DNA of 14,934 bases, from contig JAGQGA010000059.1 of assembly GCA_020432595.1 (NCBI GenBank), forward strand, positions 1-14,934, written 5' to 3'. This document shows positions 1 through 13,230 of the stretch, in pieces. Numbering within the stretch: position 1 is the first letter of the stretch; each line of letters begins with the position of its first letter. Position numbers and translations under genes: made by a program. Source of the DNA: Anaerolineales bacterium (GTDB lineage Bacteria; Chloroflexota; Anaerolineae; Promineifilales; Promineifilaceae). The notes below the pieces were generated by a model. That model worked only from the letters and a program-made list of their open reading frames with translations, made no database searches and was not told where the DNA came from.

Positions 1-229
1 CCTGCCCGATTTGGGTGGCGGTGCGTGCGGCGTGGTCGGCGAAGGATTCACCGGCTTGCTCGCGCAGGGCGTTGGCGCTGGTGATGTTGGTGACGACGCC
101 AAGCAGGGCAAGCGGGAGCAGGGTTACGATAATCATGGCGAGGATGAGTTTGGTGGCAACGCTGCTGGTTAGTTGAGCCATGATGTCGCGTATGGTGTTG
201 ATGGAAGAGCTTACCGTCATTTGTGACAT
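1..229 (-). CDS. N-terminus of a membrane-anchored sensor/receptor, cut by left edge
   Basis: Only the first 76 codons are in the window. The ATG at 229-227 is preceded by AGAGGA (235-240) with a 5-base spacer, a good ribosome binding site, and begins MSQMTVSSSINTI. Residues about 27-49 (KLILAMIIVTLLPLALLGVV) form one clear membrane segment after a short cytoplasmic leader. An amphipathic stretch with ALREQAGESFADHAARTATQ follows. This layout is typical of the start of chemoreceptors or histidine kinases with an extracytoplasmic Cache-type sensor. It lies 79 bp downstream of the PilJ-like gene, same strand, and so is probably in the same operon. A second receptor or a hybrid kinase is plausible; the signalling domain is not visible, so the exact class cannot be assigned. 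Confidence 0.7.
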   Translation of the reverse strand, partial: MSQMTVSSSINTIRDIMAQLTSSVATKLILAMIIVTLLPLALLGVVTNITSANALREQAGESFADHAARTATQIGQ

Positions 230-308
230 TGGGTTCCTCTTGGTCTACCGGCGGGCGTGTGGCCCACGGGCATGTGTCATGGTCTGATAGGGGGAGGTGG
301 AGGGGGGA

Positions 309-2543
309 TTAACGGCCGTTAACCCCACGCCCACTCCCGTTCGGCAGACGGAACGTACTAACCGAACTACGTAACTCATTGGCTAACTGAGCCAGATTGT
401 TGATCGAAACAGCCGCCTGCTTCGTCCCAGCGGCCGTTTGCTGCGTCACATCTGCAATATCACTCATCGCCAGGGCAATCGCTTCCGAGCCACGCGCCTG
501 CTGTTTGGCCGCCAGCGAAATAGATTGAATCAAACCAGACAACTGATTCGATACATCCTCAATCTCGCGCAGCGTCCCGCCCGCTTCGTTTGCCAAGCTG
601 GCTCCGTTATCCACTTCACGGATTGCCAGGCTCATAGAAGTAACGGCGGCATGTGTTTCCTGCTGGATGCTGCGGGTCAGTGCCACAATTTGGCGCGTTG
701 CTTCCGTAGACCGCTCCGCCAACCGTTCCACTTCCTCGGCCACCACGGCAAAGCCGCTGCCCGACACCCCGGCACGTGCCGCCTGAATCGAGGCGTTGAG
801 TGCCAAAATGCTGGTACGGTTAGAGATACCGCTAATGAGCTTCACAAACTCGTTAATCTGACGTGAGCTTTCGCCCAATTGCTCAATCCGGCGAGCCGTC
901 TCCTGCACCTGGGCGCGGATGCGGTTCATACCGGCGATGGTGTTTTGCACGGCACGGGTGCCTCGCTGGGCATTGACGGAGGCTTGTTCGCCAACCGTGG
1001 CCGACAGCGAAGCATTTTCGGAAACCTGCTGGATAGAAACTGTCATCTCGTCAATGGCAGCCGAGGTGTCAATGATTTGTGCCGCCTGGGATTCACTCCC
1101 ATATGCCAAATGCTCGGCGGTGGTTTGAATTTCATTGGCCGATGAGCTAACGTGGAGCGAGGTTTCCTGAACGGCCGTAATAATTTGCCGCAGTTGCCCA
1201 ATCATAAAATTAAAAGAGTCGGCAATCGCTAGTTGCCCAATCATAAAATTAAAAGAGTCGGCAATCGCTCCGGTCATGTCAGTAGTCACTTCCGCTTCAA
1301 CCGTCAAATCACCTTCAGCCACACCCGCCACCTCATCAATTAGCTTCATGATGGCAGCTTCAATGCGGTTACGGTCTTCACGGGTTTCAATGAGTGTCAG
1401 GGTGTTGTCCAACATGCTGTTTAGTCCCTGCGCCATTTGCCCCAATTCGTCGTCGCCCAGGTCGGCAACGCGGTTTTCCAGTTGTCCTTCTCCCACTTCA
1501 ATAAAGGTTTGGTTAATTGCATCAATAGATTGCGTAATTTGGTGGGAAACCAGATAAACAACGCCACCGGTGATGATGAGGGCAACCAGAACCAGCGCGA
1601 TAAACAAGATAAGGCTGGTTTGGGCGCGGGATTGAATGTTGCTGGCGGTGGCGATGAGCTTGGCGGCAAGCTGGAACTCCACATCGCCTAGCCGGTCAAT
1701 GCGCACGCTGGCGGTTTGGAACCAGAGGTCGGGGGCAACGCCAAAGTTGCCAATGGCGGAGTTGTTGATGGCAACTTCACGTAAACGCAAGAAGTTGTCT
1801 ACCTCTTTGCCCTGTACGGTTTGGGTGTAGAAATCAATTTCGTCGGGGCGGCTGGCGTTGAGAAAGGCGGTTTCCAGGGCGGCCTGCCCACCGGCCACGG
1901 TTACAAAGCGGCCTAGCTCGCTTGGCTTCACCCGGTCGGCGGCAAAAACGTCGGCCAAAATGGCGCGTTCTTGCCCGGCTAACTCCTTGATTTGCAGGAA
2001 GAGGTTGTAGGTGGTGAGCAAGCGGCTGATTTCGCCATCGGAACTGAGGCGGGCGGAAAAGGCCACCACGTTGAGGAGTTGGGAGGTAATGGTGCTGTAG
2101 CTGTTGATGGCGTTGGCACTGGTGACAGAGAGGGTGTCAATTTGGTTGTGGATGGCGGGAAGCTGGGAGAGGTTGTTGATGGCTCCCGTAGCGAGGCCCT
2201 CAAATTCCGGCCCAAATTGGGCGGCGTCGAAGTCGGCAAAGAGTTCGAGCAGGGTGGCTTTGCTGGCGTCGCTTGCCTTGCGCTGGGTCAACATTTGCTG
2301 TTGAAATTGTTGGCCTCCACTGCCCAGAAAGAGGGCGGTTTGGGCGCGTTCTTTTTGCAGTTCGTCAACATAGTCGCTGAGGGCGACGGAAAAGTTGACA
2401 AGGTTCTGGATGTCTGCCATTTCGCTGGCTAACTGTGCCCGGTTGATTGCTTCGACGGTGACAAAGTAGAGCAGGGCGAGCAGCGGCATCAGAACCAGAA
2501 GGAGGTGTTTATGACTGAGTTTGATATTTTTTAAACTGATCAT
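309..2543 (-). CDS. pilJ: PilJ-like methyl-accepting chemotaxis protein with NIT sensor domain
   Basis: Chemoreceptor of the Pil-Chp type, expected to control a CheA kinase through CheW. Counting from the ATG at 2543: membrane helix about 13-33; extracytoplasmic NIT (nitrate/nitrite-sensing family) domain about 45-290, with ELQKERAQTALFLGSGG and a following TQRKASD motif; second membrane helix about 309-332; HAMP about 333-386; a second HAMP-like segment about 395-451; then the coiled-coil signalling domain. The hairpin tip (575-592, NRTSILALNASIQAARAG) has Gln where classical receptors have Glu, as in PilJ. The end of the protein also resembles PilJ (RLAERSTEATRQI, SISLAAKQQARGSE). An in-frame TTG at 2558 would add five residues, but it has no ribosome binding site; the ATG has a weak GGA at 7 bases. 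The second HAMP-like segment contains a 13-residue tandem duplication. The stop codon is formed by a copy of the AACGGCCGTT palindrome. Follows the CheW gene. Confidence 0.93.
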   Translation of the reverse strand: MISLKNIKLSHKHLLLVLMPLLALLYFVTVEAINRAQLASEMADIQNLVNFSVALSDYVDELQKERAQTALFLGSGGQQFQQQMLTQRKASDASKATLLELFADFDAAQFGPEFEGLATGAINNLSQLPAIHNQIDTLSVTSANAINSYSTITSQLLNVVAFSARLSSDGEISRLLTTYNLFLQIKELAGQERAILADVFAADRVKPSELGRFVTVAGGQAALETAFLNASRPDEIDFYTQTVQGKEVDNFLRLREVAINNSAIGNFGVAPDLWFQTASVRIDRLGDVEFQLAAKLIATASNIQSRAQTSLILFIALVLVALIITGGVVYLVSHQITQSIDAINQTFIEVGEGQLENRVADLGDDELGQMAQGLNSMLDNTLTLIETREDRNRIEAAIMKLIDEVAGVAEGDLTVEAEVTTDMTGAIADSFNFMIGQLAIADSFNFMIGQLRQIITAVQETSLHVSSSANEIQTTAEHLAYGSESQAAQIIDTSAAIDEMTVSIQQVSENASLSATVGEQASVNAQRGTRAVQNTIAGMNRIRAQVQETARRIEQLGESSRQINEFVKLISGISNRTSILALNASIQAARAGVSGSGFAVVAEEVERLAERSTEATRQIVALTRSIQQETHAAVTSMSLAIREVDNGASLANEAGGTLREIEDVSNQLSGLIQSISLAAKQQARGSEAIALAMSDIADVTQQTAAGTKQAAVSINNLAQLANELRSSVSTFRLPNGSGRGVNGR
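1192..1269 (-). repeat. Perfect 39-bp tandem duplication inside the chemoreceptor gene
   Basis: Bases 1192-1230 and 1231-1269 are identical and directly adjacent. The unit is 13 codons, so the frame is kept and the peptide AIADSFNFMIGQL appears twice in a row (residues 426-438 and 439-451 from the ATG). Related receptors carry one such segment at the end of the second HAMP-like unit. The perfect identity points to a very recent duplication or to an assembly error. Confidence 0.97.
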
Positions 2544-2616
2544 GTTTCGTTCCGTCAATTCGGCGTGTCACGTGTGGGTGACGATGCGCGTCTACAGGTG
2601 GTTGATCTGTTCTGAG

Positions 2617-4275
2617 TTAGGTTAGGTCAAATTGCCAGATGGCGGGTGAGAGCAGCAGCTTTTCCAGGTCGAGGAGGACGAGCAAACGGCCGTTTTCCTC
2701 ATACACACCCTGCAAATAGGGGGCTACCTGGTCTTCAATGGGGGCACTCAACACGCCAATCTGGTCAGTATCGAGATAGCGAATATCTTCGATCTCATCT
2801 ACCACAAGTCCGGTGGTGATGGACGAGGCGTGTTTTTCGCTGTGTACCACCATTACCTGGCTGTCGCCGTGGCTAAAACTTTGCTCGCTGTGGCCGTTGC
2901 TGCTCAATCCCAGGAAGGCACGTAGCCCGATGAGTGACAAGACATCGCCGCGCAGGTTGGTGACGCCCATGAGCCAGCCGGGGACGTTGGGGATGCGGGT
3001 AACGGCCGTTAATTGCGCCACTTCACGCACATGGTTGGCCGGAGCCGCATACATCTCGCCCGCCAGCATAAAGACCACATATTGGCGCAGGCTTTGCAGC
3101 GGCGCGGTCAGTTGTTCGCTGGAAAGGTCGGTGATGGTGCCGTTACCATAAGCCGCCTCTACCTCATCATCAATGGTGCTGATGATGTCTTGCAGATAGT
3201 CGGCTGCGGGTTGGAGCGCGGCCAGGGCGGCGGCTTCGTCGTCAGAGAAGTCGGCAGCGGGTTCTTGCAGCGCGGCCAGGGCGTCGCTTTCATCGGCAAA
3301 AAGCCGGGGCGCGGGTTCTGCGGTTGCTGCATCTGCCAATGTTTCTTGCAAAGCCAGCAGAGCGTCGTCTTCGTCGGCACTGCTCATGGTTTCCGCCAGG
3401 GCGGCCAGGGCATTGGCTTCGTCGTTGCTGTCGGCCGCAAAAACGGCCGTTTCTTGCAAGGCATCCGCATCGGCCAACAAAGCAGCCAGGGCGTCGTCTT
3501 CGTCGTCGCTGTCGGCCGCGAAAACGGCCGTTTCTTCCGGCTCGGCTTCCTCTGCCAGCAGGGCAACCAGCGCTTCATCTTCATCGCCGTCGGGCATGGA
3601 GTCAAAAACGGCCGTTTCTTCCAGCTCGGCTTCGTCGGCCCATAAGGCCATCAGGGCATCATCGTCGTCGGCGAAAATGGCCGTTTCTGCCAGTGTGTCT
3701 TCGTCGTCTTTGTCGCGTTCATCGGGAGCGGGGTCAAAAACGGCCGTTTCTTCCGGCTCGTCTTCGTCTTCAACCGCTTCAACTGGGGTTTCCGCTTCTT
3801 CGGCTAAATCGGCGGCAATAAAAATGTCGTCGGCCTGCCCCGCCAGAAGCGCGTCGGTTGCCTGGTCAAGCAGTTCCAACAGCCCTTCATCTTCGGGCAG
3901 CGTGCCGTCGTCCAGGTCAAAGGGGGAATCATCGAGCCAGTCGGGTTTGGGGTTGGCGAGCCTGTCGCGGGCGGGTTTGTCATCGGTGCTGACCGGTTCG
4001 GAGGTGGGGTCAGAAACAGCCGTTTCTGGTTCCCCCCTGGCTGCTTGCAACGGGTTCAGCAGCAGCGATGCCTCCATCTCTGCCAAATCACTTAGGGCTG
4101 CCAGCGTTTCCGGGTCAAAAAGGGACGAGTCGGCCGGCGGTTGCAGCAACGCTTGCTCCATCGCCGCCATATCATCCACTTCTTTCGGCTGCGGTGGCGT
4201 TGCCTTTGGCTGGATGAGGTCTGCCAGCGGGTCTTGGTTTGTTTCTTTTTCAGGCTCTTTTTTCTGATTACTCAC
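2617..4275 (-). CDS. CheW-family coupling protein with long acidic N-terminal extension (PilI position)
   Basis: A 552-residue protein with a CheW domain only in the last third (about 398-545): QYVVFMLAGEMYAAP, then IPNVPGWLMGVTNLRGDVLSL, then GLVVDEIEDI and the VLLDLEKLL end. CheW links receptors to the CheA kinase in the cytoplasm; here it sits just upstream of the PilJ-like receptor, in the place of pilI/pixI. Usual CheW proteins are about 150-180 residues. Residues 1-390 are very rich in Asp, Glu, Ala and Leu, have no membrane segment and look disordered. They contain repeated units of roughly 21-28 residues with ETAVF at 176, 220, 248 and 275 and variants at 84 (ETAVS) and 197 (ETAIF), encoded by AACGGCCGTT palindromes. 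Start is GTG at 4275, with GAGG 10 bases upstream; no better start keeps the extension. Function of the extension is unknown; a flexible spacer or partner-binding array is possible. Confidence 0.88.
   Translation of the reverse strand: MSNQKKEPEKETNQDPLADLIQPKATPPQPKEVDDMAAMEQALLQPPADSSLFDPETLAALSDLAEMEASLLLNPLQAARGEPETAVSDPTSEPVSTDDKPARDRLANPKPDWLDDSPFDLDDGTLPEDEGLLELLDQATDALLAGQADDIFIAADLAEEAETPVEAVEDEDEPEETAVFDPAPDERDKDDEDTLAETAIFADDDDALMALWADEAELEETAVFDSMPDGDEDEALVALLAEEAEPEETAVFAADSDDEDDALAALLADADALQETAVFAADSNDEANALAALAETMSSADEDDALLALQETLADAATAEPAPRLFADESDALAALQEPAADFSDDEAAALAALQPAADYLQDIISTIDDEVEAAYGNGTITDLSSEQLTAPLQSLRQYVVFMLAGEMYAAPANHVREVAQLTAVTRIPNVPGWLMGVTNLRGDVLSLIGLRAFLGLSSNGHSEQSFSHGDSQVMVVHSEKHASSITTGLVVDEIEDIRYLDTDQIGVLSAPIEDQVAPYLQGVYEENGRLLVLLDLEKLLLSPAIWQFDLT
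3442..3748. repeat. Cluster of AACGGCCGTT palindromes in the CheW extension
   Basis: Perfect copies lie at 3442-3451, 3523-3532, 3607-3616 and 3739-3748, with a one-mismatch copy at 3676-3685 and a further degenerate one outside at 4015-4024. Intervals are 81, 84, 69, 63 and 276 bases, all multiples of three, so each is read in the same frame as part of Glu-Thr-Ala-Val/Ile. All four perfect copies extend to the 12-mer AAACGGCCGTTT. The spacers are irregular and coding, so this is not a CRISPR. Confidence 0.9.
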
Positions 4276-4383
4276 AGTCAGCTAACCTCACGCAAAAAGA
4301 ATGGTTCCCGTCAACAAGCAAAACGAAACAAACCTGACTGTGAGCCAGTTATTTTGTTTCAGATACAGTTGTTAGATGGGAGT

Positions 4384-4431
4384 TAATGGCTGGCAAATTG
4401 GGCACGATGTAGGAGGTGGTGCCAGCCATTA
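4384..4431 (-). repeat. Inverted repeat between the receiver gene and the CheW gene
   Basis: TAATGGCTGGCA (4384-4395) and TGCCAGCCATTA (4420-4431) are perfect 12-bp inverted repeats around a 24-base loop. They lie in the 179-bp gap downstream of the stand-alone receiver gene. No T-run follows on the minus strand, so a simple intrinsic terminator is unlikely. A transcript-stabilising or processing stem that sets different levels for the receiver and for CheW/receptor is possible. The rest of the gap (4276-4454) holds only the weak ribosome binding site of the CheW gene. Confidence 0.6.
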
Positions 4432-4454
4432 GCGTTTATCGAAAGGGATTTGTC

Positions 4455-4817
4455 CTAGATGAGCCTGGCGACCATTTGCACCAGTTCGTTTTCATCAAAT
4501 GGCTTGGTCATGTACTCATCGGCTCCCTGGCGCAGCCCCCAAAAGCGGTCGCTGTCCCGGTTTTTGCTGCTCAACATCAAAATCTTGATGTCCTTGGTGT
4601 TGGCCGCTGTTTTTAGCTGGCGGCACACCTGGAAACCGTTTTGCAGTGGCAAAACAATGTCCAACACAATGAGGTCAGGCATTTCGCGGGCTGCTTTTTC
4701 CAAAGCTTCTTCACCGTTGGTGGCGGTGCTAATGCGGTACCCCTGCCGGGTAAGCGGGGTGCTGATCAGGTGACGATGGGTGGGGCTGTCTTCTACAATT
4801 AAAATTGATTTACTCAT
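4455..4817 (-). CDS. Single-domain response regulator, CheY/PilH-like
   Basis: A stand-alone receiver of 120 residues, the normal length. The phosphorylation site is complete: acidic pair E9/D10 (ILIVEDSP), phospho-acceptor D53 (LIVLDIVLP), S83 in LMLSS, and K105 in MTKPF. The segment DRFWGLRQGADEYMTKPF is of the kind seen in PilH/PixH regulators of type IV pilus chemosensory systems. In those systems PilH takes phosphate from CheA, and acts on pilus motors or as a phosphate sink. ATG at 4817 has AGG 9 bases upstream. It lies 68 bp after the TPR-receiver gene and before CheW, matching the G-H-I-J order. No output domain is present, so it acts by protein contact rather than by binding DNA. Confidence 0.92.
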   Translation of the reverse strand: MSKSILIVEDSPTHRHLISTPLTRQGYRISTATNGEEALEKAAREMPDLIVLDIVLPLQNGFQVCRQLKTAANTKDIKILMLSSKNRDSDRFWGLRQGADEYMTKPFDENELVQMVARLI

Positions 4818-4885
4818 GGTTGCTACCTATCTTTGAAATCATGTTTGAATTGCAAACGATTCCTTTTCTCCTTTGCCAAGACTGT

Positions 4886-6265
4886 TTAGTCTCGTTTGAT
4901 ATGTTTGCTAACCGCTTCAACCAGATTTTCGGCTTTAAACGGTTTGGTAATATAGTCGGTTGACCCGGCCATACGGCCGCGCACGCGGTCAAAAAAGCCG
5001 TCCTTACCCGAAAGCATGACGATGGGGATGCCTTTGGTTTCTTTGTACCCTTTGATGATTTTGCATACCTGATAGCCGTCCATGCGGGGCATGGTGATGT
5101 CGAGCAGGATGAGGTTGGGTAAACGGCCGTTTAACTCTGACGAATGACCATTGAGCTTGCCCAAGGCCTGCATTCCATCGGCCGCCACCACCACGCTGTA
5201 GCCGGCCTCCTCTAACGTCATCGAAACCAGCTTACGGATGGTGGGGCTGTCGTCCACCACCAAAATGACCCCTTTTTGCGGCGCGGGCGCGTGCTGTTTG
5301 TTTTTGGCAACTTCGGCATCGGCCTGCCGTTGCAGCAGCACCGTCACCAGGGCGCGAATGGCGCGGTTATCGGGCTGGAGCTGGAGGGCAATGTTGAGCT
5401 GTTCGATGCCACGGTCAACGCGCCCCAAATTAAGCTGCGCCAGTGCCAGCTTGTAGTAAGTGCCAACCTCGTTAAGCGCGGCTGCCTCTTGCGTCAAACG
5501 CTGCGCCACGCTTTCCAAACAGTCGCGGTTGACGCTGCTGTTGTGGATTACGCTGTCAATGTCGGAAAGGGTGAGAATGGCGTGGCAGTTGGGGCAAGGG
5601 TCGCTGGGTTGGTCGGCGGGGGTCAGGCAGAGGGGGCACATCCAGGCGGGGGGGGCTTGTCGCTGTAGTTCAGCCTGGAGGTCGGCAACGGCCGTTTGTA
5701 AAAATTTGTTGTCGGGCTGAAGCCGCTGTGCTGTTTGCAGGTGGCGCAACCCCAGTGCCGTTTCGCGCATGTTCAAATGGGCCAACGCCAGCTTGTAATG
5801 GACACGTACATCGTCGGGGTCATGTTCCACCGCTTGCTGAAGCTGGGAAACGGCCGTTTGCAGCCGTCGGTTGTCCACGGCGTGGTTTTCCAGCAGCACC
5901 GTAAAATCGGTCAGCGTCAGCACGGCGCGGCAGCGGGGGCAGCGGTCGTGGGCTTCGGTGTCGGCAGCGTCACAAAGGGGGCAGTGCCAAACGGCCGTTT
6001 CCTGTTGTTGTGCCAGCCGCCCCTCGGCCTGCCGCAGTGCTGCCAAAATTTGCTCGTTGCCGGGGCTAAGTGCCAGCGCCCTGTGCAAATACTTGACCGT
6101 TTCGTCGGGAGTTGTGGCAACGACAGCCAGCCAGAGCCAGACGGATTTGTTATTAGGGTCATAGAGACTTGCCTCCAACAGCAAGCGGCGTGCCAATGGT
6201 TTATTGCCCGCTCGCGCTGCGGCAATGCCATCCTGCTGGAGGTTGAGAACATTGGCTGTTGTCAT
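4886..6265 (-). CDS. TPR and zinc-ribbon protein with C-terminal receiver domain (PilG position)
   Basis: A 459-residue cytoplasmic protein without membrane segments. TPR-like helices occupy about 8-85, 135-200 and 250-310 (for example VHYKLALAHLN and TYYKLALAQLN). Two four-cysteine zinc-ribbon-like motifs separate them: C95/C98/C109/C112 (WHCPLC, RCPRC) and C210/C213/C224/C227 (WMCPLC, PCPNC). The C-terminal receiver (about 333-457) has D338/D339, phospho-acceptor D389 (LLDITMP), S419 and K441 (YITKPF). Its KDGFFDRVRGRMAGSTDYI is a PilG-type signature. ZnR plus TPR forms a duplicated module. In pilG or pixG operons this place is taken by a bare receiver or a PATAN-receiver protein, so the N-terminal half is unusual and may bind a partner. 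ATG 6265 has AAGGA 8 bases upstream. It appears to be the first gene of the chemosensory operon. Confidence 0.9.
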   Translation of the reverse strand: MTTANVLNLQQDGIAAARAGNKPLARRLLLEASLYDPNNKSVWLWLAVVATTPDETVKYLHRALALSPGNEQILAALRQAEGRLAQQQETAVWHCPLCDAADTEAHDRCPRCRAVLTLTDFTVLLENHAVDNRRLQTAVSQLQQAVEHDPDDVRVHYKLALAHLNMRETALGLRHLQTAQRLQPDNKFLQTAVADLQAELQRQAPPAWMCPLCLTPADQPSDPCPNCHAILTLSDIDSVIHNSSVNRDCLESVAQRLTQEAAALNEVGTYYKLALAQLNLGRVDRGIEQLNIALQLQPDNRAIRALVTVLLQRQADAEVAKNKQHAPAPQKGVILVVDDSPTIRKLVSMTLEEAGYSVVVAADGMQALGKLNGHSSELNGRLPNLILLDITMPRMDGYQVCKIIKGYKETKGIPIVMLSGKDGFFDRVRGRMAGSTDYITKPFKAENLVEAVSKHIKRD

Positions 6266-6605
6266 GAACTATTTCCTTACGATTAAGGATGGTATACCCT
6301 TGGTGGGTGTTTCGCGGGTGATGCAGAGTAGAGGTTTCAGGTGTGAGCCAGGTAAGTCTGCCCCTTTGGGGTACAGACTCCCATAGCCCAGCTTCCAATA
6401 CGGTTTATCCAATACGTATGTATTACCGCTACACTGTAGACATAATCTGCAACAACACATTCCCGATACAAAAGCAGATAATGTTCGTCCTGGTTGGTTT
6501 AACGGTGTGGGGCTGGTGCCAGGCAATCGTTTAGCGTGAATGGTGTGATCCATTTTGTTACATCTACTATCTAAAATTTCGCTTAAGGCATGGCTTACGA
6601 TGGCG
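6266..6605 (-). other. Intergenic leader region of the chemosensory operon
   Basis: About 340 bases without a credible gene between the kinase-like gene and the TPR-receiver gene; it should hold the operon promoter. Visible elements: CGTATTGG twice on the minus strand (6395-6402 and 6409-6416, period 14); the near-palindrome CTACACTGTAG around 6433; and a short stem nearer the gene, GTCTG/CAGAC (6356-6360, 6374-6378) enclosing CCCC TTT GGGG. No sigma-70 promoter with good -35 and -10 boxes was found, so no promoter is called. No known riboswitch was recognised. Confidence 0.5.
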
Positions 6606-6625
6606 GTAAAAACGGCCGTTTTTAC
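6606..6625. repeat. 20-bp perfect palindrome at the end of the kinase-like gene
   Basis: GTAAAAACGGCCGTTTTTAC is a perfect palindrome that contains a copy of AACGGCCGTT (6611-6620) and overlaps the TAA stop codon (6622-6624) of the kinase-like gene. On the minus strand it can fold into an 8-bp stem with a GGCC loop and a five-T tract in its 3' arm. It may act as a weak terminator, but the stem is AT-rich and the T-run is inside it. Confidence 0.6.
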
Positions 6626-8262
6626 GAGCTTTTCACAGCTGGCATCACATCTTGCACCAAGCGTCCTAACTCTGCTTGCGCCCGGCTGGTCACATCGGCC
6701 GGCAGCGGCAGACCCAGTGCCTGTTGCAGCGCCGTCACCGTTGCAAAACGGTTGGCAGGGTTCTCATCTAAACATTGCTGAATCGCCAGCACCAGCCGTG
6801 GTTCCAGCCCCGCAAAGGCATCAGGGCGCAGCGTAGGGGCATGGAATAAACGGTTGGGCTGTGGCGGCTGCTCCAGAAAAGGGGAGCGCCCCGTGCTAAG
6901 CTGGTAGAGCAGCACGCCCAGCGAAAAAATGTCAACCTGCTGGTTTTGAATTAACGGGTCAACCAGCGGTTGTTTCCCATTGGCGTAAAAAAGCGACTGC
7001 TTACGCCTCACATATTCCGGCGCATTCCACTGCACATCGCCGTTTTCACCCCGTTTAACCTGGCTAAATTCGCTTTGCTGCGGCATGGTGGCCGCCGCAA
7101 AATCTGTCAGCCACACCTGACCCTGTTTGTCCACCAAAATGTTGGAAGGCTTTAGCTCGCGGTGAACAATGCCAGCCTGCTGGTGCAAATGACGCAGTGC
7201 CTCGATAAGCTGCGCCACAATTTCCAGCGCAATGGTGGTGCCCAGTTTGGGGCGTTCTGTCAGCACCTTGCTCAAATCTGCGCCGTCAATATATGCCTCC
7301 ACCAAATAGGGGCGGGGGCGGCTGTTCTTGTCGCTGCCAAAATAGCCAGACGCTTGCAGCGGCACAATGTGGGGCGCATGGGGGGCAATTTGCTCCCGGA
7401 TTTCAATTTCGCGTAGGCATTTTATTTCGGTGGCATCATCCACCGGCTGTTTGATGGCAATAAGGTGGGGAGTGCCACGCTGCTGCGCCTGCTGAATGTG
7501 GTATTTAACCCCAGTTGCCAAATGGTTGATGAGCCGATAGCCATCAAACTGTTTGCGCAGGTGGCGGGGAAGCAGCAAGGCCAGCAGGGGAAGCAAAATC
7601 AGCAGAATAATTGGCAATGCCACCGTGAGCATGATCCCGCTTAGTTTGGTTGATGTGCCTAGTAGTTGCAGCGTTAGCCGCCGCTGTGGCTGTAGGTCAA
7701 TGTTGGTGCCAAAGCGGGTGACAAACGTGTCGAAGTCGCTACTGCCCGCAAGATGCATCCAAACGGCCAATTGTGCCGCTAGGGTGGTTTCGGCTTCACT
7801 GTCATGGATACGCTGTAGCAAAGCCAACAGGTCGCTGTTGTGCGAAAGCGATTCTGGGGTGAAGGTGATGTCGGGGATGGGAAAGGCGAGGTTAACGTCG
7901 AGGCTGTAGGCGTAGGTGGTGCGGGAAATGGTTTCGCCCGGGGGCAGGGTGATGCTTTCGCTTTGCGAGAGGATGAGGTTGGCGTAATTGGGGTTGCTGC
8001 TGTGTAGCTGTTGCCCTTGCTCTAGGGTCAGGGTTAACGGCCGTTCTGTCTTATTGGTCAGGCGAAACAGCAGCATTGGCTGAATATAGGCAATGTTGCG
8101 CCCCTCGATCTCAATCTGCATCTGGTTGCTGGCAACTGCTTCAGACAGCGTTAACACCTCTGATTGAGCCGCCGCCATGTGGCTGGACAACAGCCATAGC
8201 ACCAGTGCAACCACTGTCGTGAGCCGAGAGTAAATTTTGCGGGCGGATATGTGGTAGGCCAT
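6622..8262 (-). CDS. Membrane protein with extracytoplasmic domain and degenerate Ser/Thr kinase domain
   Basis: 546 residues. A signal peptide (about 1-33, ending AAAQS) leads into an extracytoplasmic, probably beta-rich domain (34-205) of unrecognised family. A membrane helix (about 209-231) follows, then basic RHLRKQ and a cytoplasmic kinase-like domain (about 240-515). Kept kinase features: K271 (IAIK), H367/R368, K371/N374 (LKPSN), D387 (TDF), APE at 414-416, D444 (DIFSLG) and R505 (ANRF). Changed: the catalytic Asp of HRD is Glu (E369, codon GAG), DFG is DFA, and the glycine-rich loop is not recognisable (LATGVKYHIQQ). It is therefore likely inactive or weakly active. The topology, sensor first and kinase last, is the reverse of PknB-type kinases. 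ATG at 8262 lacks a clear ribosome binding site and sits just after a hairpin. Follows the BcsB-like gene and may sense or regulate surface polymer production; this role is inferred from position only. Confidence 0.85.
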   Translation of the reverse strand: MAYHISARKIYSRLTTVVALVLWLLSSHMAAAQSEVLTLSEAVASNQMQIEIEGRNIAYIQPMLLFRLTNKTERPLTLTLEQGQQLHSSNPNYANLILSQSESITLPPGETISRTTYAYSLDVNLAFPIPDITFTPESLSHNSDLLALLQRIHDSEAETTLAAQLAVWMHLAGSSDFDTFVTRFGTNIDLQPQRRLTLQLLGTSTKLSGIMLTVALPIILLILLPLLALLLPRHLRKQFDGYRLINHLATGVKYHIQQAQQRGTPHLIAIKQPVDDATEIKCLREIEIREQIAPHAPHIVPLQASGYFGSDKNSRPRPYLVEAYIDGADLSKVLTERPKLGTTIALEIVAQLIEALRHLHQQAGIVHRELKPSNILVDKQGQVWLTDFAAATMPQQSEFSQVKRGENGDVQWNAPEYVRRKQSLFYANGKQPLVDPLIQNQQVDIFSLGVLLYQLSTGRSPFLEQPPQPNRLFHAPTLRPDAFAGLEPRLVLAIQQCLDENPANRFATVTALQQALGLPLPADVTSRAQAELGRLVQDVMPAVKSS

Positions 8263-8268
8263 GTATTA

Positions 8269-8303
8269 AAGAAGGGTTCACCCTGTGCGAATGAACCCTT
8301 CTT
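8269..8303 (-). terminator. Terminator-like hairpin between the BcsB-like and kinase-like genes
   Basis: AAGAAGGGTTCA (8269-8280) and TGAACCCTTCTT (8292-8303) form a perfect 12-bp stem with an 11-base loop, five bases after the BcsB-like stop codon. On the minus strand the stem ends in CTTCTTTAATAC, a broken T-rich tail, so termination would be partial. It ends only 6 bases before the ATG of the kinase-like gene, which lacks a ribosome binding site, so it could also influence translation of that gene. Confidence 0.6.
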
Positions 8304-8307
8304 GCAA

Positions 8308-10713
8308 TTACTGTCGGAAGCGGATGAGAATAAGAATGAGCAGGACGATGACCGAAATCGCCAAAATGGTCATCCACACCCAGCGGCTAAAAAGATCGCT
8401 TTGGGCGGGAACCTGGGCGGGGTCGGCGGCGAGAATGGGGCCGCTTTCGGCAAGCTGGTCATTGATGGAAAACTGCGGCTGCTCCGGTTCATTGGCCGGT
8501 GTTGCCTGGCTGGCGGCGCTGTTTTCTTCGCTGGTAACGGCCGTTTCTACGGTTTCGGTGGGGGCGGCGGTGGGAGAAACGGCCGTTGTGGTAATGGTTT
8601 CCGTTCCCGTAATCACCGTTTCTGCCGTGATGCCCGGCGTTGTGTCCTCCGTGCTTGCTACTTCGGTGCCGCTTGGCACCTGGGCAAAAGCGTCCACATC
8701 AGGTGGTGCCACAAACAGCCGCTCCGCTTCGATGACGGCAAAGTTGCTGGCAAGCTGGGTGCGCTGGCTGGAGGTAAACAGGGCGTTGAGCGCTTGCTCC
8801 ACCCCGGCGGGCGAATCACCCAACACCGTCATGATGGCGTGTTCGCTGTTCCACGGGGTGGGCAGCAGTTGCAGATACCCCAGCGTGACATCGGGTGGAA
8901 CCAGAAAGTCAACGGGGAGCTTTTCGTCCACCACGCGGTCGCTGTCGCTGGCAAAGGGGGCAGGCAGCGATTCGTTGAGTTCGCCAAGCAGCGGCAGGGC
9001 ACGCGCCTGCCCAACGAGCAGCAGGTCATAATTGCTGCGGAGGTCGGCGGGGATGTTGTCGGCATAGGCGGCGCGGAGGGTGGTGAGGGTGCCGCTGGCG
9101 CGGTTGCCCAGGTCAAATGCCAGCTTGATGGCAATATTCCAGGCGCGGGTGTCGTTGGGCGGCACGATGATGGCCGTAGTGCCCAGCGTGGTGTCCAGGG
9201 TAAAGGGGTCGGGATATTGGCTGAGCGTGAAGGTGTTGGCATCTGGTTTTTGTGCCGGAGCCAGCGGCAGGTGCAGCCATGATTCGGGACGGATGGCGAG
9301 CCAGGCGGCGGCTCCTAAATCGTTGCAGCTTCGCAGCGGCACCAGTTCTGCCCGCAGTTGCAGGTGGTTGCGGCCGGGACGAACGGCCGTTATGGGAATT
9401 CGCACCGTATACGACCCCAAATTAGTGGTTTCATCGCTAAAACGAACGCTGCCCACCGGCTCGTCGTTGAGAATGACCGAAATGCCAGAGCGGGCGTAAT
9501 CTAGCAGCGCCGAATGGCTAAAGATAAGATTGATGGTTGCTTCATCGCTATCGGCAATGGTTTGCCCGTCGGGTAGCACAAATTCTAGGTCGGTTTGGTC
9601 GGTGCCGCGCCCTTGCAGCAGGGGCGAACCGTACCCCAGTTCGGTAAAGGTGCGGTCGGTGTCGGGGCTGCCAACGGTGGGATTGTTGGTGTCCACCGCT
9701 TCAACAATGGCCGTGCTGCGCTGGCCGCCGGTGCGAATGGTGCCAGAGCTAAACGCCTGGGCAGCCTTGATGGTGGCGGCATCGTTGCTGCCGGTGATGA
9801 TCAGCACCACCTTGGCCGGGTTCCAGGGGGAAACAACCATTTGCAGCAGCCCGTTGCCATCCGCTTCACCAACGGCCGGCGGTGGGCTGATGAGCAGTTC
9901 GGTTAGCCCGCTAAACCCCTCGGCCTTGCCCACCAGAATGAGGTGTTTGCTGCTCTGATCCTGCGGCGTTAGCTCATTGAGCGGGACGGTGGTGAGCAAA
10001 AGGGTGCTGCCGGTGGTTTTGCCCAGCCCGGCGGCCACGGTAAAGGCGGCCTGAAGTTCGCCAGCGGTGGGGTTTTGCGGCAGCACAATCACGGCTTCAT
10101 CGGGCAAGAAGGAGCGCTGGTAGATGGGGCGGGGGAGTTGGGTGAGGTCGGTGTTGGGGGCAATGGTGGTGTGGGGCAGCAGAAAGCGGGAGGTGGGCAA
10201 CAGGACGACGTTGACATTGCGTTCAAAATCGCAAACGTGGTCGCCGCGCAGGGTGATTTGCAGGGGAAAACGGCCGTCTATGCGGGTGGTGTCGAGAGCG
10301 ATGTCGGGGACGGTGAAGGTGAAGGTGGCGGGGCCATTTTGCGTGAGGGGGATGTCACCGATCACGATGTCGTTAAATTCAACCTCGATGGAGCCACCGT
10401 AAACGCCCAGCCCGGTGCTGAGGGCTTCACTGCTGATAAACACCAGGGTGTCTAGCTCAACTTGGGTGCCGGGGAGAAGCTGCCAGTCGGCGGGCAGGCT
10501 GAGGAATAGACGAGCGCTGTCGGAGGGGCCGCGCAGCGTTTGGCCGGTGAAGCTGAGTTGGTCAAAGGTGACAATGTTGCTGGGGTCAAGAACGGCCGTT
10601 GTGGCGGCTCCAGCCGTGGGCGACTCTTGTGCCTGCGTTGCCGGGATGACCAGCCCAAAGCTAAAGAGGGTGAGAAAAATACCGATAAAAATTCCGCTGA
10701 CTCTGTTTAACAT
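8308..10713 (-). CDS. bcsB: BcsB-like beta-glucan synthase membrane-anchored subunit
   Basis: 801 residues, close to E. coli BcsB. Signal peptide about 1-29 (ATQAQ), a long extracytoplasmic region, a Thr/Glu/Ala-rich linker (about 680-770), and a single C-terminal membrane helix (777-798) ending in RFRQ. The body repeats a pair of domains as in BcsB: carbohydrate-binding beta-sandwich about 48-175 (LRGPSDSARLFLSLPADW; RGDHVCDFE), flavodoxin-like about 196-340, second beta-sandwich about 355-485 (RSCNDLGAAAWLAI; ESWLHL), second flavodoxin-like about 500-665. In BcsB the C-terminal helix packs on the synthase BcsA, and the outer domains guide the glucan as it leaves the membrane. No synthase gene is visible, so the polymer is unknown. 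ATG 10713 has AGGAG (10720-10724) 6 bases upstream, the best ribosome binding site in the window. It lies 24 bp after the lipoprotein gene, so the two are co-transcribed. Confidence 0.88.
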   Translation of the reverse strand: MLNRVSGIFIGIFLTLFSFGLVIPATQAQESPTAGAATTAVLDPSNIVTFDQLSFTGQTLRGPSDSARLFLSLPADWQLLPGTQVELDTLVFISSEALSTGLGVYGGSIEVEFNDIVIGDIPLTQNGPATFTFTVPDIALDTTRIDGRFPLQITLRGDHVCDFERNVNVVLLPTSRFLLPHTTIAPNTDLTQLPRPIYQRSFLPDEAVIVLPQNPTAGELQAAFTVAAGLGKTTGSTLLLTTVPLNELTPQDQSSKHLILVGKAEGFSGLTELLISPPPAVGEADGNGLLQMVVSPWNPAKVVLIITGSNDAATIKAAQAFSSGTIRTGGQRSTAIVEAVDTNNPTVGSPDTDRTFTELGYGSPLLQGRGTDQTDLEFVLPDGQTIADSDEATINLIFSHSALLDYARSGISVILNDEPVGSVRFSDETTNLGSYTVRIPITAVRPGRNHLQLRAELVPLRSCNDLGAAAWLAIRPESWLHLPLAPAQKPDANTFTLSQYPDPFTLDTTLGTTAIIVPPNDTRAWNIAIKLAFDLGNRASGTLTTLRAAYADNIPADLRSNYDLLLVGQARALPLLGELNESLPAPFASDSDRVVDEKLPVDFLVPPDVTLGYLQLLPTPWNSEHAIMTVLGDSPAGVEQALNALFTSSQRTQLASNFAVIEAERLFVAPPDVDAFAQVPSGTEVASTEDTTPGITAETVITGTETITTTAVSPTAAPTETVETAVTSEENSAASQATPANEPEQPQFSINDQLAESGPILAADPAQVPAQSDLFSRWVWMTILAISVIVLLILILIRFRQ

Positions 10714-10737
10714 CCAATACTCCTGAAGGCGGCTCGT

Positions 10738-13230
10738 TTAGTCACATAGCTCTAGCGCCACATCGTCAATGAACATGTAGGTGGGGGCATTGTCGCCGTC
10801 GTTGACCACGCCGAAATAAAGAAAAATAGTTTGTCCTAGAAATTGGCTTAAATCGTAGGTTTTGTGTTCCCATGCCTGTTGGTTGGCCGTTTGCCACAGC
10901 AGCGTTTGCTGAATGGCCGCAAAGGTTTCGTCATAAATAGCCGCGCTCTGGGTGTCGCCGCCATCAACGTCGCTGGAGGCGGGATATTGCCAGTAGCTAA
11001 GGGTGGCACTGCGGGCGGTGGCGGGCAGTTGGATTTGCTGGCTGAGGCTGGAGAAGCTGGCCGAGGTAGTTGTGTCGCTGCCTAGCTGAATGGCGCGGCT
11101 GCCCTGGTGGGTTTGGCTGGTGGTGAAGGTGGCAGGAACGGCCGTTTCAACAATATTCCATCCCCCTTCCTGCTCAAAATCCCCGTTTACCATCAAATTG
11201 CGGCAGCCGCTGGCAATGGGGTCAGGCTGGGCGCATTCCGCCAACAGCCCCGCCTGGCAGAGGAATTGTTCCGCCACCGTGGCAAGCGGCTGCTCGTCGC
11301 CGCTATTGGGCTGGCCGTCGCTGCCAAGTTGGGTGTGGGATAGCAGTTGGTTGAACTGGGCGGGGGTGAGAACGGCCGTCATTTGCGCCAATTGCCCGGC
11401 AAGCTGTGGATAGGCGGCGGCAATTTCCTGGCGAATGACCGGGGTGAGGGTGTAGTTGGGAAAAAATTCCAGCGGGTCGGCCAGGATGTGGAGGGTGGGG
11501 GTGGTGGCAAAACTGCCGTTTTGCCCCGACGCCACGCCAATGGCGCAATCTCCGGCGGCAACCTGACTGTAAATATCGTCGCTGTCGCTGGCGAGAATAA
11601 TCTGGCTGTTGGGCAGCGAGAAGCCGTATTGCTCAAAGAGATAAAACAGCCCGTCGGGGTCGTTGAAGAAGCTGGGCAGGGTGCAGAGCGTGGGCGGCTC
11701 GTCGCTGCGGTTGATTTGTTCGGCCAGTTCGTTGATGCTGTTGGGGAGGGCGGTTTGAAAAACGGCCGTTTGTCGGTTGACAAAAACCACATCCCGCTGG
11801 CTCAGTTGGCTTGGCTCCAGCCAGTAAAGTGCGGTCTCGTTGCTGTCGTTCACCAGCGCTTCCTGGGCCAACGCGCCCAGGGCGGGTATTTGCTGCGGGG
11901 CAACGCCGTAGAAATAGCGCAGGGCATCATTGCTGTAGAGCCAGGCCAGGTCTACGCCGCCGTTTTGCAGAGCCGTGTTGAGCGTGGCTGGGTCGCCGCT
12001 GCTGGCGGCGGGAGCCAGATCGTAGCCGTTTTCTTGCAGCAGACGCTCGCTGAGGGCAGCCAAAAGCTGGCTGGCGGGGTTGAGCACGCTGCTGATGACA
12101 ATTTGCGGGGCATCGCCCAGCAGCCCGGCCTGGATGAGAAAGGCAGCGGCAGCGGCGGCGGGTGTTTCTTCATCGCCGCTGGCGGGCTGGCCGTCGTTAC
12201 CAAGCTCGACACGGGCAATGAGCTGGCGCATGGTTTGGCTGTCGAGGCGGACACCCCAGCGGGTTAACGGCCGTTCTAGCTCTGGCATGGCGGCCAAAAG
12301 TGGGCTGCGGATGACCGCAGCGGCGGCGTTGCTGGGGAAGAAAGCGCGGTTGTCAACCAGCGGCTGTAGTTCCCACGCCTCTAAACGGCCGTCGCTGTTT
12401 TGCGCCACAGCCACATCGCAATCTCCCTGGTGCAGCCCCATCAGCACATCCTCGGCGGCTAGCAGATAGACGCTGCTTTCGGACAAGGTAAAGCTGTAGC
12501 TGGCTTCCAGGTCACGCAGCCCGGTTTGGGCGCGGGCGTAAAAGTCGCTGTCGGTGCAGAGGCGCAGGGGGGTGCTGTTTTCACGCACATAACGCGCCAA
12601 ATCGTCCAGCGTGATGATGCCAGCCGCGCTGGTTTCGGCGGTGACAACGAGAATGGTTTGGCTGCGGTAGGCGGCGGGGGTGAGCCAGGTGAGACCCAGC
12701 GGCTGATCCAGCGTGCGGACGAGAGCAATGGCTTTGTCGGCTTCGCTGGGCAGGGCATCGGGCGGTAGTTGGTGAGCCTGGGTAAGGGTAGTGCCGGTGA
12801 AGCCGATGGCGAGGTCAATCTCACCTTGTTCGAGGGCGGTACGAACGGCCGTTTGTCCACCCAGCCCCGTTTTGTCCACCACCGCATAGCCGTTGGCCTG
12901 CAGCAGTTGAACGAGCATTTGCCCTAAAATAAGCTGCTCGGTATCGGTTTGGGAACCAACGATGATGGTTTTGGGGGGTGTCGTGGTGAGGGTGGCGGTG
13001 ACGACTGGGGTGGGCGAGGGGATGGGCGTGGGGTTGGCTTCGTTGGCAAGGAGGGAATTAACGGCCGTTGGCTGCGCCTCGGCTGGGGGTGGGGTTACGA
13101 TCATAAATGGCTCAGAGGGGGCTGCCGCCATTTCGGTTACTGCCTTTACCTGGCAGCTTGTTATCAGGAACGTTGTTATCATTATTAGCCCAAAAAACCA
13201 AATTTGTTTTTGTGGTACCGGGAAGATCAT
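10738..13230 (-). CDS. Lipoprotein with two tandem ProX/OpuAC-type binding domains and C-terminal beta-sandwich
   Basis: 830 residues from the ATG at 13230 (GGTGGA a few bases upstream). This start gives an ideal lipoprotein signal: MIFPVPQKQ, hydrophobic core, then lipobox ITSC with Cys26. An in-frame TTG at 13281 would spoil it. After a Pro/Thr linker, domain 1 (about 87-369) matches the glycine betaine/choline-binding family: IIVGSQTDTEQLILGQMLVQ, GLGGQTAV, then EIDLAIGFTGTTL. Domain 2 (about 375-665) is a diverged copy (SSVLNPASQLLAALSERLL; GVDLAWLYSNDAL). Both end alike, LGNDGQPASGDE and LGSDGQPNSGDE, each followed by a helix ending in QAGLL. Residues about 676-830 form a carbohydrate-binding-like jelly roll (NLMVNGDFEQEGGW; FIDDVALELCD). 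No ABC permease or ATPase gene is adjacent, and the BcsB-like gene follows after 24 bp, so a sensing or polymer-binding role is as likely as transport. Ligand unknown. Confidence 0.85.
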   Translation of the reverse strand: MIFPVPQKQIWFFGLIMITTFLITSCQVKAVTEMAAAPSEPFMIVTPPPAEAQPTAVNSLLANEANPTPIPSPTPVVTATLTTTPPKTIIVGSQTDTEQLILGQMLVQLLQANGYAVVDKTGLGGQTAVRTALEQGEIDLAIGFTGTTLTQAHQLPPDALPSEADKAIALVRTLDQPLGLTWLTPAAYRSQTILVVTAETSAAGIITLDDLARYVRENSTPLRLCTDSDFYARAQTGLRDLEASYSFTLSESSVYLLAAEDVLMGLHQGDCDVAVAQNSDGRLEAWELQPLVDNRAFFPSNAAAAVIRSPLLAAMPELERPLTRWGVRLDSQTMRQLIARVELGNDGQPASGDEETPAAAAAAFLIQAGLLGDAPQIVISSVLNPASQLLAALSERLLQENGYDLAPAASSGDPATLNTALQNGGVDLAWLYSNDALRYFYGVAPQQIPALGALAQEALVNDSNETALYWLEPSQLSQRDVVFVNRQTAVFQTALPNSINELAEQINRSDEPPTLCTLPSFFNDPDGLFYLFEQYGFSLPNSQIILASDSDDIYSQVAAGDCAIGVASGQNGSFATTPTLHILADPLEFFPNYTLTPVIRQEIAAAYPQLAGQLAQMTAVLTPAQFNQLLSHTQLGSDGQPNSGDEQPLATVAEQFLCQAGLLAECAQPDPIASGCRNLMVNGDFEQEGGWNIVETAVPATFTTSQTHQGSRAIQLGSDTTTSASFSSLSQQIQLPATARSATLSYWQYPASSDVDGGDTQSAAIYDETFAAIQQTLLWQTANQQAWEHKTYDLSQFLGQTIFLYFGVVNDGDNAPTYMFIDDVALELCD

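Follow-up and report, generated by a model that had tools for sequence, protein, structure and literature searches.

The stretch of DNA analysed here, referred to as the window, comprises 14,934 nucleotides of contig JAGQGA010000059.1 from an Anaerolineales bacterium. Its genes, taken as the longest open frames, encode a chemotaxis receptor (methyl-accepting chemotaxis protein, MCP), a CheW-domain protein, two response regulators, a kinase, a BcsB-like protein, a double OpuAC protein and a NosD-like protein. Dispersed among them are 22 perfect copies of the ten-letter palindrome AACGGCCGTT. In related genomes this word has a shared core with lineage-specific flanks, comes close to saturating the positions that can hold it, is retained at synonymous positions and has shaped some phage genes alike. 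The original prediction, made from the letters of the window, had counted 22 copies, ten of them in the longer form AAACGGCCGTTT, and an exact count returns both numbers over the same span. Dinucleotide-preserving shuffles (200) contain 0.02 copies on average and 1 at most. The Markov background that the prediction had called for gives 0.016 to 0.84 expected copies in the window at orders 0–4, and 4.8 at order 5, the highest orders taking up the word itself in their expectation. Nested forms number 37 (CGGCCG), 26 (ACGGCCGT), 22 (AACGGCCGTT) and 10 (AAACGGCCGTTT), and only eight one-letter neighbours of the ten-mer occur, which makes the word a sharp one in the window. The next commonest ten-base palindromes have one copy each.

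Twenty-one copies are genic and fall in all three reading frames (T-A-V, N-G-R and E-R-P-L); one is intergenic (table 1). They had been said to lie in unrelated genes, and the genes bearing them are indeed neighbours from different families (chemotaxis and signalling, BcsB-like, double OpuAC). The sequence around them is mostly unrelated from copy to copy. T-A-V is coded ACGGCCGTN in 18 of its 19 occurrences in the window. In the CheW-domain protein, positions 3442–3748 encode an acidic stretch in which E-T-A-V recurs, the word coding every repeat; this stretch may have been moulded by the DNA word.

Table 1. Copies of the palindrome in the window, with their reading and gene context.
Word	Positions	Reading and context
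AACGGCCGTT	311..320	N-G-R, end of chemotaxis receptor gene
AACGGCCGTT	2685..2694	N-G-R-L, CheW-domain gene
AACGGCCGTT	3001..3010	L-T-A-V, CheW-domain gene
AACGGCCGTT	3442..3451	E-T-A-V, CheW-domain gene
AACGGCCGTT	3523..3532	E-T-A-V, CheW-domain gene
AACGGCCGTT	3607..3616	E-T-A-V, CheW-domain gene
AACGGCCGTT	3739..3748	E-T-A-V, CheW-domain gene
AACGGCCGTT	5122..5131	N-G-R-L, TPR/response-regulator gene
AACGGCCGTT	5687..5696	Q-T-A-V
AACGGCCGTT	5849..5858	Q-T-A-V
AACGGCCGTT	5990..5999	E-T-A-V
AACGGCCGTT	6611..6620	sole intergenic copy
AACGGCCGTT	8036..8045	E-R-P-L, kinase gene
AACGGCCGTT	8536..8545	E-T-A-V, BcsB-like gene
AACGGCCGTT	8578..8587	T-T-A-V
AACGGCCGTT	9382..9391	I-T-A-V
AACGGCCGTT	10591..10600	T-T-A-V
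AACGGCCGTT	11137..11146	E-T-A-V, OpuAC gene
AACGGCCGTT	11761..11770	Q-T-A-V
AACGGCCGTT	12266..12275	E-R-P-L
AACGGCCGTT	12844..12853	Q-T-A-V
AACGGCCGTT	13060..13069	P-T-A-V
ACGGCCGT	1171..1178	eight-letter form without full AA..TT flanks
ACGGCCGT	10270..10277	eight-letter form
ACGGCCGT	11372..11379	eight-letter form
ACGGCCGT	12385..12392	eight-letter form

Relatives were reached by aligning the BcsB-like protein with 13 homologues and scanning the genome contigs. Of 35 loci scanned, the word was present only in L001, with 12 copies in 14.4 kb. The source of this locus, G001, is the nearest genome found and contains 2526 copies of AACGGCCGTT and 22 of the reversed word genome-wide. In the relatives, then, the enrichment is not confined to one locus; such confinement was the outcome on which the original prediction was to be given up. 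The order carrying the word is probably Promineifilales, related proteins coming from Candidatus Leptofilum (NCBI order Promineifilales). Per-genome counts of AACGGCCGTT run from 4 to 5060 in the order (56 genomes), and 29 genomes have 300 or more. The maximum for ACGGCCGT is 14867 inside the order and 430 among 361 genomes of the class outside it (396 genomes in all).

A CGGCCG core that is enriched in most of the order and bears flanks specific to each lineage describes the unit better than the ten-mer does. Dialects were read from rpoB regions and from a single stretch per genome, at most 20 kb long (two stretches in four of the genomes), with C1 samples masked for G012, G030, G036, G040, G051 and G055. 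CGGCCG is the common core across the 56 genomes, and its flanks vary by lineage. The main clade has the ACGGCCGT dialect, with AA–TT flanks (AACGGCCGTT) dominant in G010, G011 and the window. TCGGCCGA makes up 77–78% of CGGCCG in G008 and G026, and GCGGCCGC 79% in G044 (a small sample). G009 and G048–G052 have mostly bare CGGCCG, with A-T flanks on 10% in G009 and 18% in G048. These dialects track the clades of the rpoB tree, a quick tree in which several forks have support below 95. Against synonymous shuffles, CGGCCG ranks first of the 64 palindromic hexamers in the samples of 46 of the 56 genomes; among 34 control loci from elsewhere it ranks first in none and is depleted (191 versus 302 expected). 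Early branches are also enriched, with 29 versus 8.4 in G045–G047 pooled and 140 versus 70 in G053–G056 pooled. The core is lower-ranked or borderline in G013, G027, G034, G041, G047 and G055. G034, G055 and G013 were counted as core-enriched despite observed/expected (O/E) ratios of 1.20, 1.36 and 1.76 in their samples; G027, whose C1 sample was judged foreign-looking, was counted by its genome-wide number of 3388. Enrichment over synonymous shuffles is absent in G015 (O/E 0.98), G016 (1.23), G021 (0.19) and G022 (0.62). Since the rpoB tree nests G022 within the main clade (SH-aLRT 94, just below the 95 mark), the trait seems to have been lost in it, and there have apparently been several losses inside the order. 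G021 has 157 copies of TTGCCGGCAA beside 4 of AACGGCCGTT, with just 447 CGGCCG in 4 Mb, and possibly uses another word.

In the deeply sampled genomes, the word occupies most of the positions open to it under the protein sequence. In 549 kb of G029, T-A-V is coded ACGGCCGTN in 427 of 441 cases, where codon usage predicts 64.5; [DHNY]-G-R is coded by the word in 248 of 277, where it predicts 14.2; and the third frame is occupied in 105 of 154. The TCGGCCGA dialect behaves alike: S-A-[DE] is coded TCGGCCGA in 159 of 180 cases in G026 (second frame 50/104) and in 219 of 245 in G008 and G026 together, and 200 kb of G026 contain no ACGGCCGT. The tripeptide make-up of the proteome follows the dialect. 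T-A-V is 6.3 to 8.6 times as frequent as expected in G029 (6.3 times), G006 and the window, and 5.6 times in the other A-T genomes pooled; in G008 and G026 it stands at 0.8 times and S-A-[DE] at 4.3 times. The pressure of a DNA word is thus strong enough to shift the tripeptide usage of proteins.

Occupancy also helps to tell per-site from density models. Pooled over samples of 26 genomes, and leaving out tripeptides on stretches without another site, T-A-V is occupied in 1082 of 1117 cases. By distance to the next site the fractions are 271/284 within 100 bp, 356/368, 272/277 and 147/148 up to 1 kb, and 36/40 beyond; for [DHNY]-G-R they are 173/205, 217/242, 200/217, 98/111 and 25/37 in the same bins. 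Spacing over 400 kb is near Poisson (coefficient of variation 1.07, variance/mean 1.01 in 2-kb bins), with gaps over 3 kb in excess (11 versus 4.7 expected) and no regular spacing or helical phase seen. As there is no limit near one site per kb and spacing is near Poisson, the force acts mainly per site: in the relatives it acts site by site, with a density limit hardly visible. Departures from the word lie mainly at its outermost letters. One-letter variants in G029 reach 3.6 times (TCGGCCGT) and 1.8 times (GCGGCCGT) their null, a third edge variant, CCGGCCGT, stands at 0.4 times, and changes in the middle four letters at 0.1–0.5 times; this null is raised by the abundance of T-A-V. G006 is broadly like G029, and G026 shows 1.7, 1.4 and 0.6 times at the edge and 0.04–0.8 times in the middle.

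The comparison of orthologues that the original prediction had proposed shows, for main-dialect pairs, that sites stay at synonymous positions where controls change. Every pair entered in both directions, and positions within rpoB cannot be taken as independent. Ordered rpoB comparisons show the same ACGGCCGT site in 32/32, 41/41 and 48/50 cases at 90–97, 85–90 and 80–85% nucleotide identity, respectively. In the same classes other G/C-only hexamers are retained at 57–65, 40–44 and 27–36%, and CGGCCG without A-T flanks in 20/29, 21/40 and 10/39 cases. At 70–80% identity, retention by frame is 472/704, 20/153 and 718/799, the low value being mainly one T-A-V column coded by some lineages only. 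A given alignment column bears the site in as many as 21 of 23 genomes. Three of the four commonest rpoB sites are missing from G010, whose dialect is AACGGCCGTT, as though protection extended to the full dialect word alone. In other orthologues, sites are retained where amino acids are equal in 44/47, 52/54 (G029 versus G006) and 22/24 cases, with controls at 22/120, 26/170 and 14/98. Raw retention there is 48/57, 58/144 and 28/62, sites with differing amino acids being mostly unshared. Between dialects (G029 versus G026) nothing is retained, at 0/18 for ACGGCCGT and 0/15 for TCGGCCGA sites.

Phage DNA can carry the same imprint. Viral contigs were picked by a scan for two close copies of the word, which yielded 25 stretches, some dense (up to 2.0 per kb) and others holding barely more than the detecting pair. 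In eight dense loci, 87 of 91 T-A-V are sites. Eight of ten tested proteins from five dense loci match phage head, packaging or tail families, and one terminase has relatives below 60% identity in 15 phage records (33% for the best-ranked). L172 had no match among plasmids. Since the contigs were chosen for bearing the word, they indicate that the pressure reaches some phages or prophages and do not tell how many.

These properties are those of a highly iterated palindrome (HIP) in the wide sense: one palindrome is hugely over-represented genome-wide in the relatives, it extends through the clade, here and there lost or exchanged for another palindrome, its deviations are concentrated at the outermost letters, and it occurs as single dispersed words in coding and non-coding DNA without longer repeat context. 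REP and BIME elements are extragenic, longer imperfect hairpins, and the Chloroflexota word has neither feature. HIP1 (GCGATCGC) is one of the closest comparisons, and the word had been predicted to be HIP1-like and yet different. Both parts hold: the word behaves like HIP1, with another sequence (core CGGCCG) and in another phylum. Both are palindromes with an informative hexamer core, eight letters long in HIP1, found in genic and intergenic DNA, and in both permissible positions are near saturation, with the frames in the same order. The yardstick for saturation was two cyanobacterial plasmids, one from Trichormus (150 kb used) and one from Synechocystis (50 kb used), and plasmids may differ from chromosomes. 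HIP1 occupies 40/49 and 16/18 A-I-A positions in these, respectively, 27/42 and 7/16 in the second frame and 17/44 and 3/8 in the third. Occupancy is higher in the Chloroflexota, at 97, 90 and 68% (G029) versus 82, 64 and 39% (Trichormus plasmid). HIP1 proper belongs to cyanobacteria and goes with CGATCG/GATC methyltransferases; in the Chloroflexota a methyltransferase is only a candidate, and the word has dialects across one order.

Elhai 2015 (PMC4390886) covers HIP1, alternate HIPs, linked methyltransferases and a model saturating near one site per kb. Its account of one-letter deviations in HIP1, commoner at the ends than in the middle, matches the pattern given above. The alternate cyanobacterial HIPs it lists are GGCGCC, GGGATCCC, TCGATCGA, RCCGGY and GCSGC. 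They share with the present word a lineage-specific swap of one GC-rich palindrome for another. They differ in that each was reported from one genome or a handful, together with a putative methyltransferase capable of modifying it, whereas here one core extends across most of an order and only the flanks change. The uptake-sequence dialects of Neisseriaceae, with their shared core, are treated by Frye 2013 (PMC3630211). Likenesses are the conserved core, dialects following the tree and thousands of copies; the Neisseriaceae words are, however, oriented with a three-letter core, CTG, and the Chloroflexota word is palindromic and also dense in some phage contigs. In the literature, surveyed through titles and the openings of abstracts, no earlier description of the present words as an iterated palindrome was found.

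We lean, tentatively and with somewhat less than even confidence, to the following reading: a HIP-type system operates in most genomes of one order, AACGGCCGTT is its dialect in the window, and a methyltransferase-like reader acts together with protection of the sites. (i) A protein that reads DNA symmetrically would recognize the core. (ii) The fine specificity of this reader would set the dialect. (iii) A site, once formed, would be protected, so that sites act as an absorbing state. (iv) The keeper could be weak selection per site or mismatch correction local to the site. For the reader, a DNA methyltransferase-like protein is the favoured candidate, and this step is the least certain; that the word is a methylation site, as had been suggested, is possible. 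A stronger version is doubtful, if conceivable: an independently evolved Chloroflexota HIP in which a site-local process, not selection on spacing or density, locks each word, and a change in the flank preference of the reader rewrites thousands of sites and, with them, the tripeptide make-up of proteins and resident phage genomes.

The candidate reader is a conserved protein of 658–699 amino acids, with the motifs DPMMGGGTT and DPPY and a permuted arrangement of its catalytic motifs. Among library models, DUF1156, PglX and Hma methyltransferases fit it best, DUF1156 scoring 75 bits against a curated cut-off of 1000. It is matched in 43 of the 56 order genomes, including 26 of 28 ACGGCCGT genomes, several matches being fragments. 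No match was obtained in G009, G016, G021, G022, G041, G042, G045 and G048–G053. The gene is interrupted or split in G008 and G026 and partial in G015, so that the four genomes without core enrichment have no full-length copy. With fragments counted as present and the copies of G008, G026 and G015 as absent, it occurs in 40 of 52 core-enriched and 0 of 4 other genomes (Fisher's test, 0.005, uncorrected for kinship). Outside the order, matches at 1e-60 occur in 43 of 361 genomes, 19 of them close, and some scores equal those of enriched genomes. The methyltransferase link is put forward as a lead, not as a result.

Several points weigh against it. The enzyme-family search was confined to PF00145 and PF01555, and weak PF01555 matches, rather than a blind screen, brought the candidate to notice. 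The Fisher value shifts to 0.049 with G034 and G055 taken as not enriched, and to 0.035 if broken and partial copies count. G041 and G042 bear the word with no candidate match, as do G009 and G048–G052 with their strong, mostly bare CGGCCG; G020 and G030 bear it though their match has an internal stop. Conversely, 14 order genomes have the candidate without the ACGGCCGT dialect (G033–G040, G044, G046, G047 and G054–G056). None of the 43 outside genomes reaches the order's ACGGCCGT level, and the median CGGCCG/GCCGGC ratio is 0.66 in the 19 with a close homologue and 0.67 in 20 without (p 0.66), the latter being the first listed without a match. Two further points count against the reading as a whole: T-A-V occupancy climbs slightly with distance, starting at 95.4% and reaching 99.3% by 1 kb, and in the TCGGCCGA dialect, where few orthologues allowed comparison, 2 of 12 sites are retained between G026 and G008 (three gene pairs, 36% median identity).

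Other proteins were considered and set aside. C5-methyltransferases fail as the cause because 14 of 28 ACGGCCGT genomes have no PF00145 match, and the PF01555 family because it comprises many unrelated members and is only weakly matched in several enriched genomes. A phage-borne candidate was likewise dismissed, the viral contigs giving 12 distant matches, the best-ranked 36% identical, and no close copy. C5 enzymes common to G009, G033, G049 and G050 are 66–76% identical; one of them, L104, matches the PDB chains 3lx6/3me5, which we take to be Dcm, over residues 61–402 of 404, so these enzymes are not likely readers of CGGCCG. L104, L106, L105 and L125 (from G050, G049, G033 and G009) are similar C5 methyltransferases, and by eye the N-terminal extension of L104 and L106 resembles a helix-turn-helix. 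As for a restriction partner, within 1.6 and 2.0 kb of flank around the G029 candidate no nuclease gene stands directly beside it; by eye, an HNH-like endonuclease gene (L303:590-1330) lies about 1.3 kb upstream, beyond an MFS-like gene.

Several rival explanations address the same data. The word could be the binding site of a chromosome-organizing or other non-enzymatic symmetric protein that co-evolves with its site, with no methylation. The palindrome, the core with variable flank, the per-site force and the scant density limit all suit such a protein. If each site adds little, tiny per-site selection would fill most possible places, and the strength needed is small (site to non-site odds in G029 of about 30:1, where codon usage predicts about 1:6). 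We nevertheless regard this as unlikely. Near-Poisson spacing without helical phase speaks against it, the excess of long gaps notwithstanding, and weakens the chromosome-organizing idea of the original prediction in its regular-spacing version; the protein would, moreover, have to act on phage DNA too. As to the kind of reader, a symmetric regulator akin to TTHA0973 of Thermus thermophilus could be imagined. The text of a paper on the binding sites of that regulator (PMC6651687) has, in one part, AACGGCCGTT twice. In the model of Elhai, sites arise and are protected as a side effect of mismatch repair directed by methylated GC, with a ceiling of about one per kilobase. The pattern is of the HIP1 kind, CGGCCG contains GC, one-letter changes are scarcer in mid-word than at the ends (with the null raised as noted), and the slight rise of T-A-V occupancy with distance fits. 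The predicted density (PMC4390886) is, however, hard to square with the occupancy of 271/284 within 100 bp and with 5.6 CGGCCG per kb in the G009 sample; the near lack of density dependence argues against the per-kb saturation part of the model. Flanks of A-T or T-A contribute no GC, but it is the flanked form that is conserved, and half of the ACGGCCGT genomes lack a C5-methyltransferase match, which still allows N4-methylation. For the Chloroflexota word the model is improbable.

DNA uptake sequences are expected to be scarce in phage and foreign DNA. An uptake word with dialects, built up by biased uptake and recombination as in Neisseriaceae, would account for a core with dialects that follow the tree, like those in Frye 2013 (PMC3630211). 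The present word is palindromic, and in contigs picked through two close copies it is not scarce: phage structural genes bear it at host-like occupancy, which weakens the uptake signal proposed in the original prediction and leaves this explanation very improbable. An artefact of codon usage, protein repeats or a mobile element would fit the four window copies that code E-T-A-V in one protein, of the CheW-domain gene. It is refuted, and deserves next to no credence, given copies in all three frames and in non-coding DNA (1.51 per kb outside genes and 1.67 within them in G029), mostly unrelated flanks, and a count far above the synonymous null (780 versus 79.6 in G029).

To our knowledge, the function of HIP1 has gone unexplained for decades. 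A second HIP system in another phylum, with dialects and apparent losses inside one order, provides natural contrasts in which that function can be tested. Some smaller features of the window and its relatives may be added. In the chemotaxis receptor gene, window positions 1191–1265 hold an in-frame tandem duplication with IADSFNFMIGQL twice, either real or an assembly error. GCCGGC is scarce where CGGCCG is abundant in G009, G044, G028–G030 and G041, with 132 copies in 4.1 Mb of G009 and 51 in 8 Mb of G044. G029 and G006 also avoid many other palindromic hexamers, as if many restriction systems acted.

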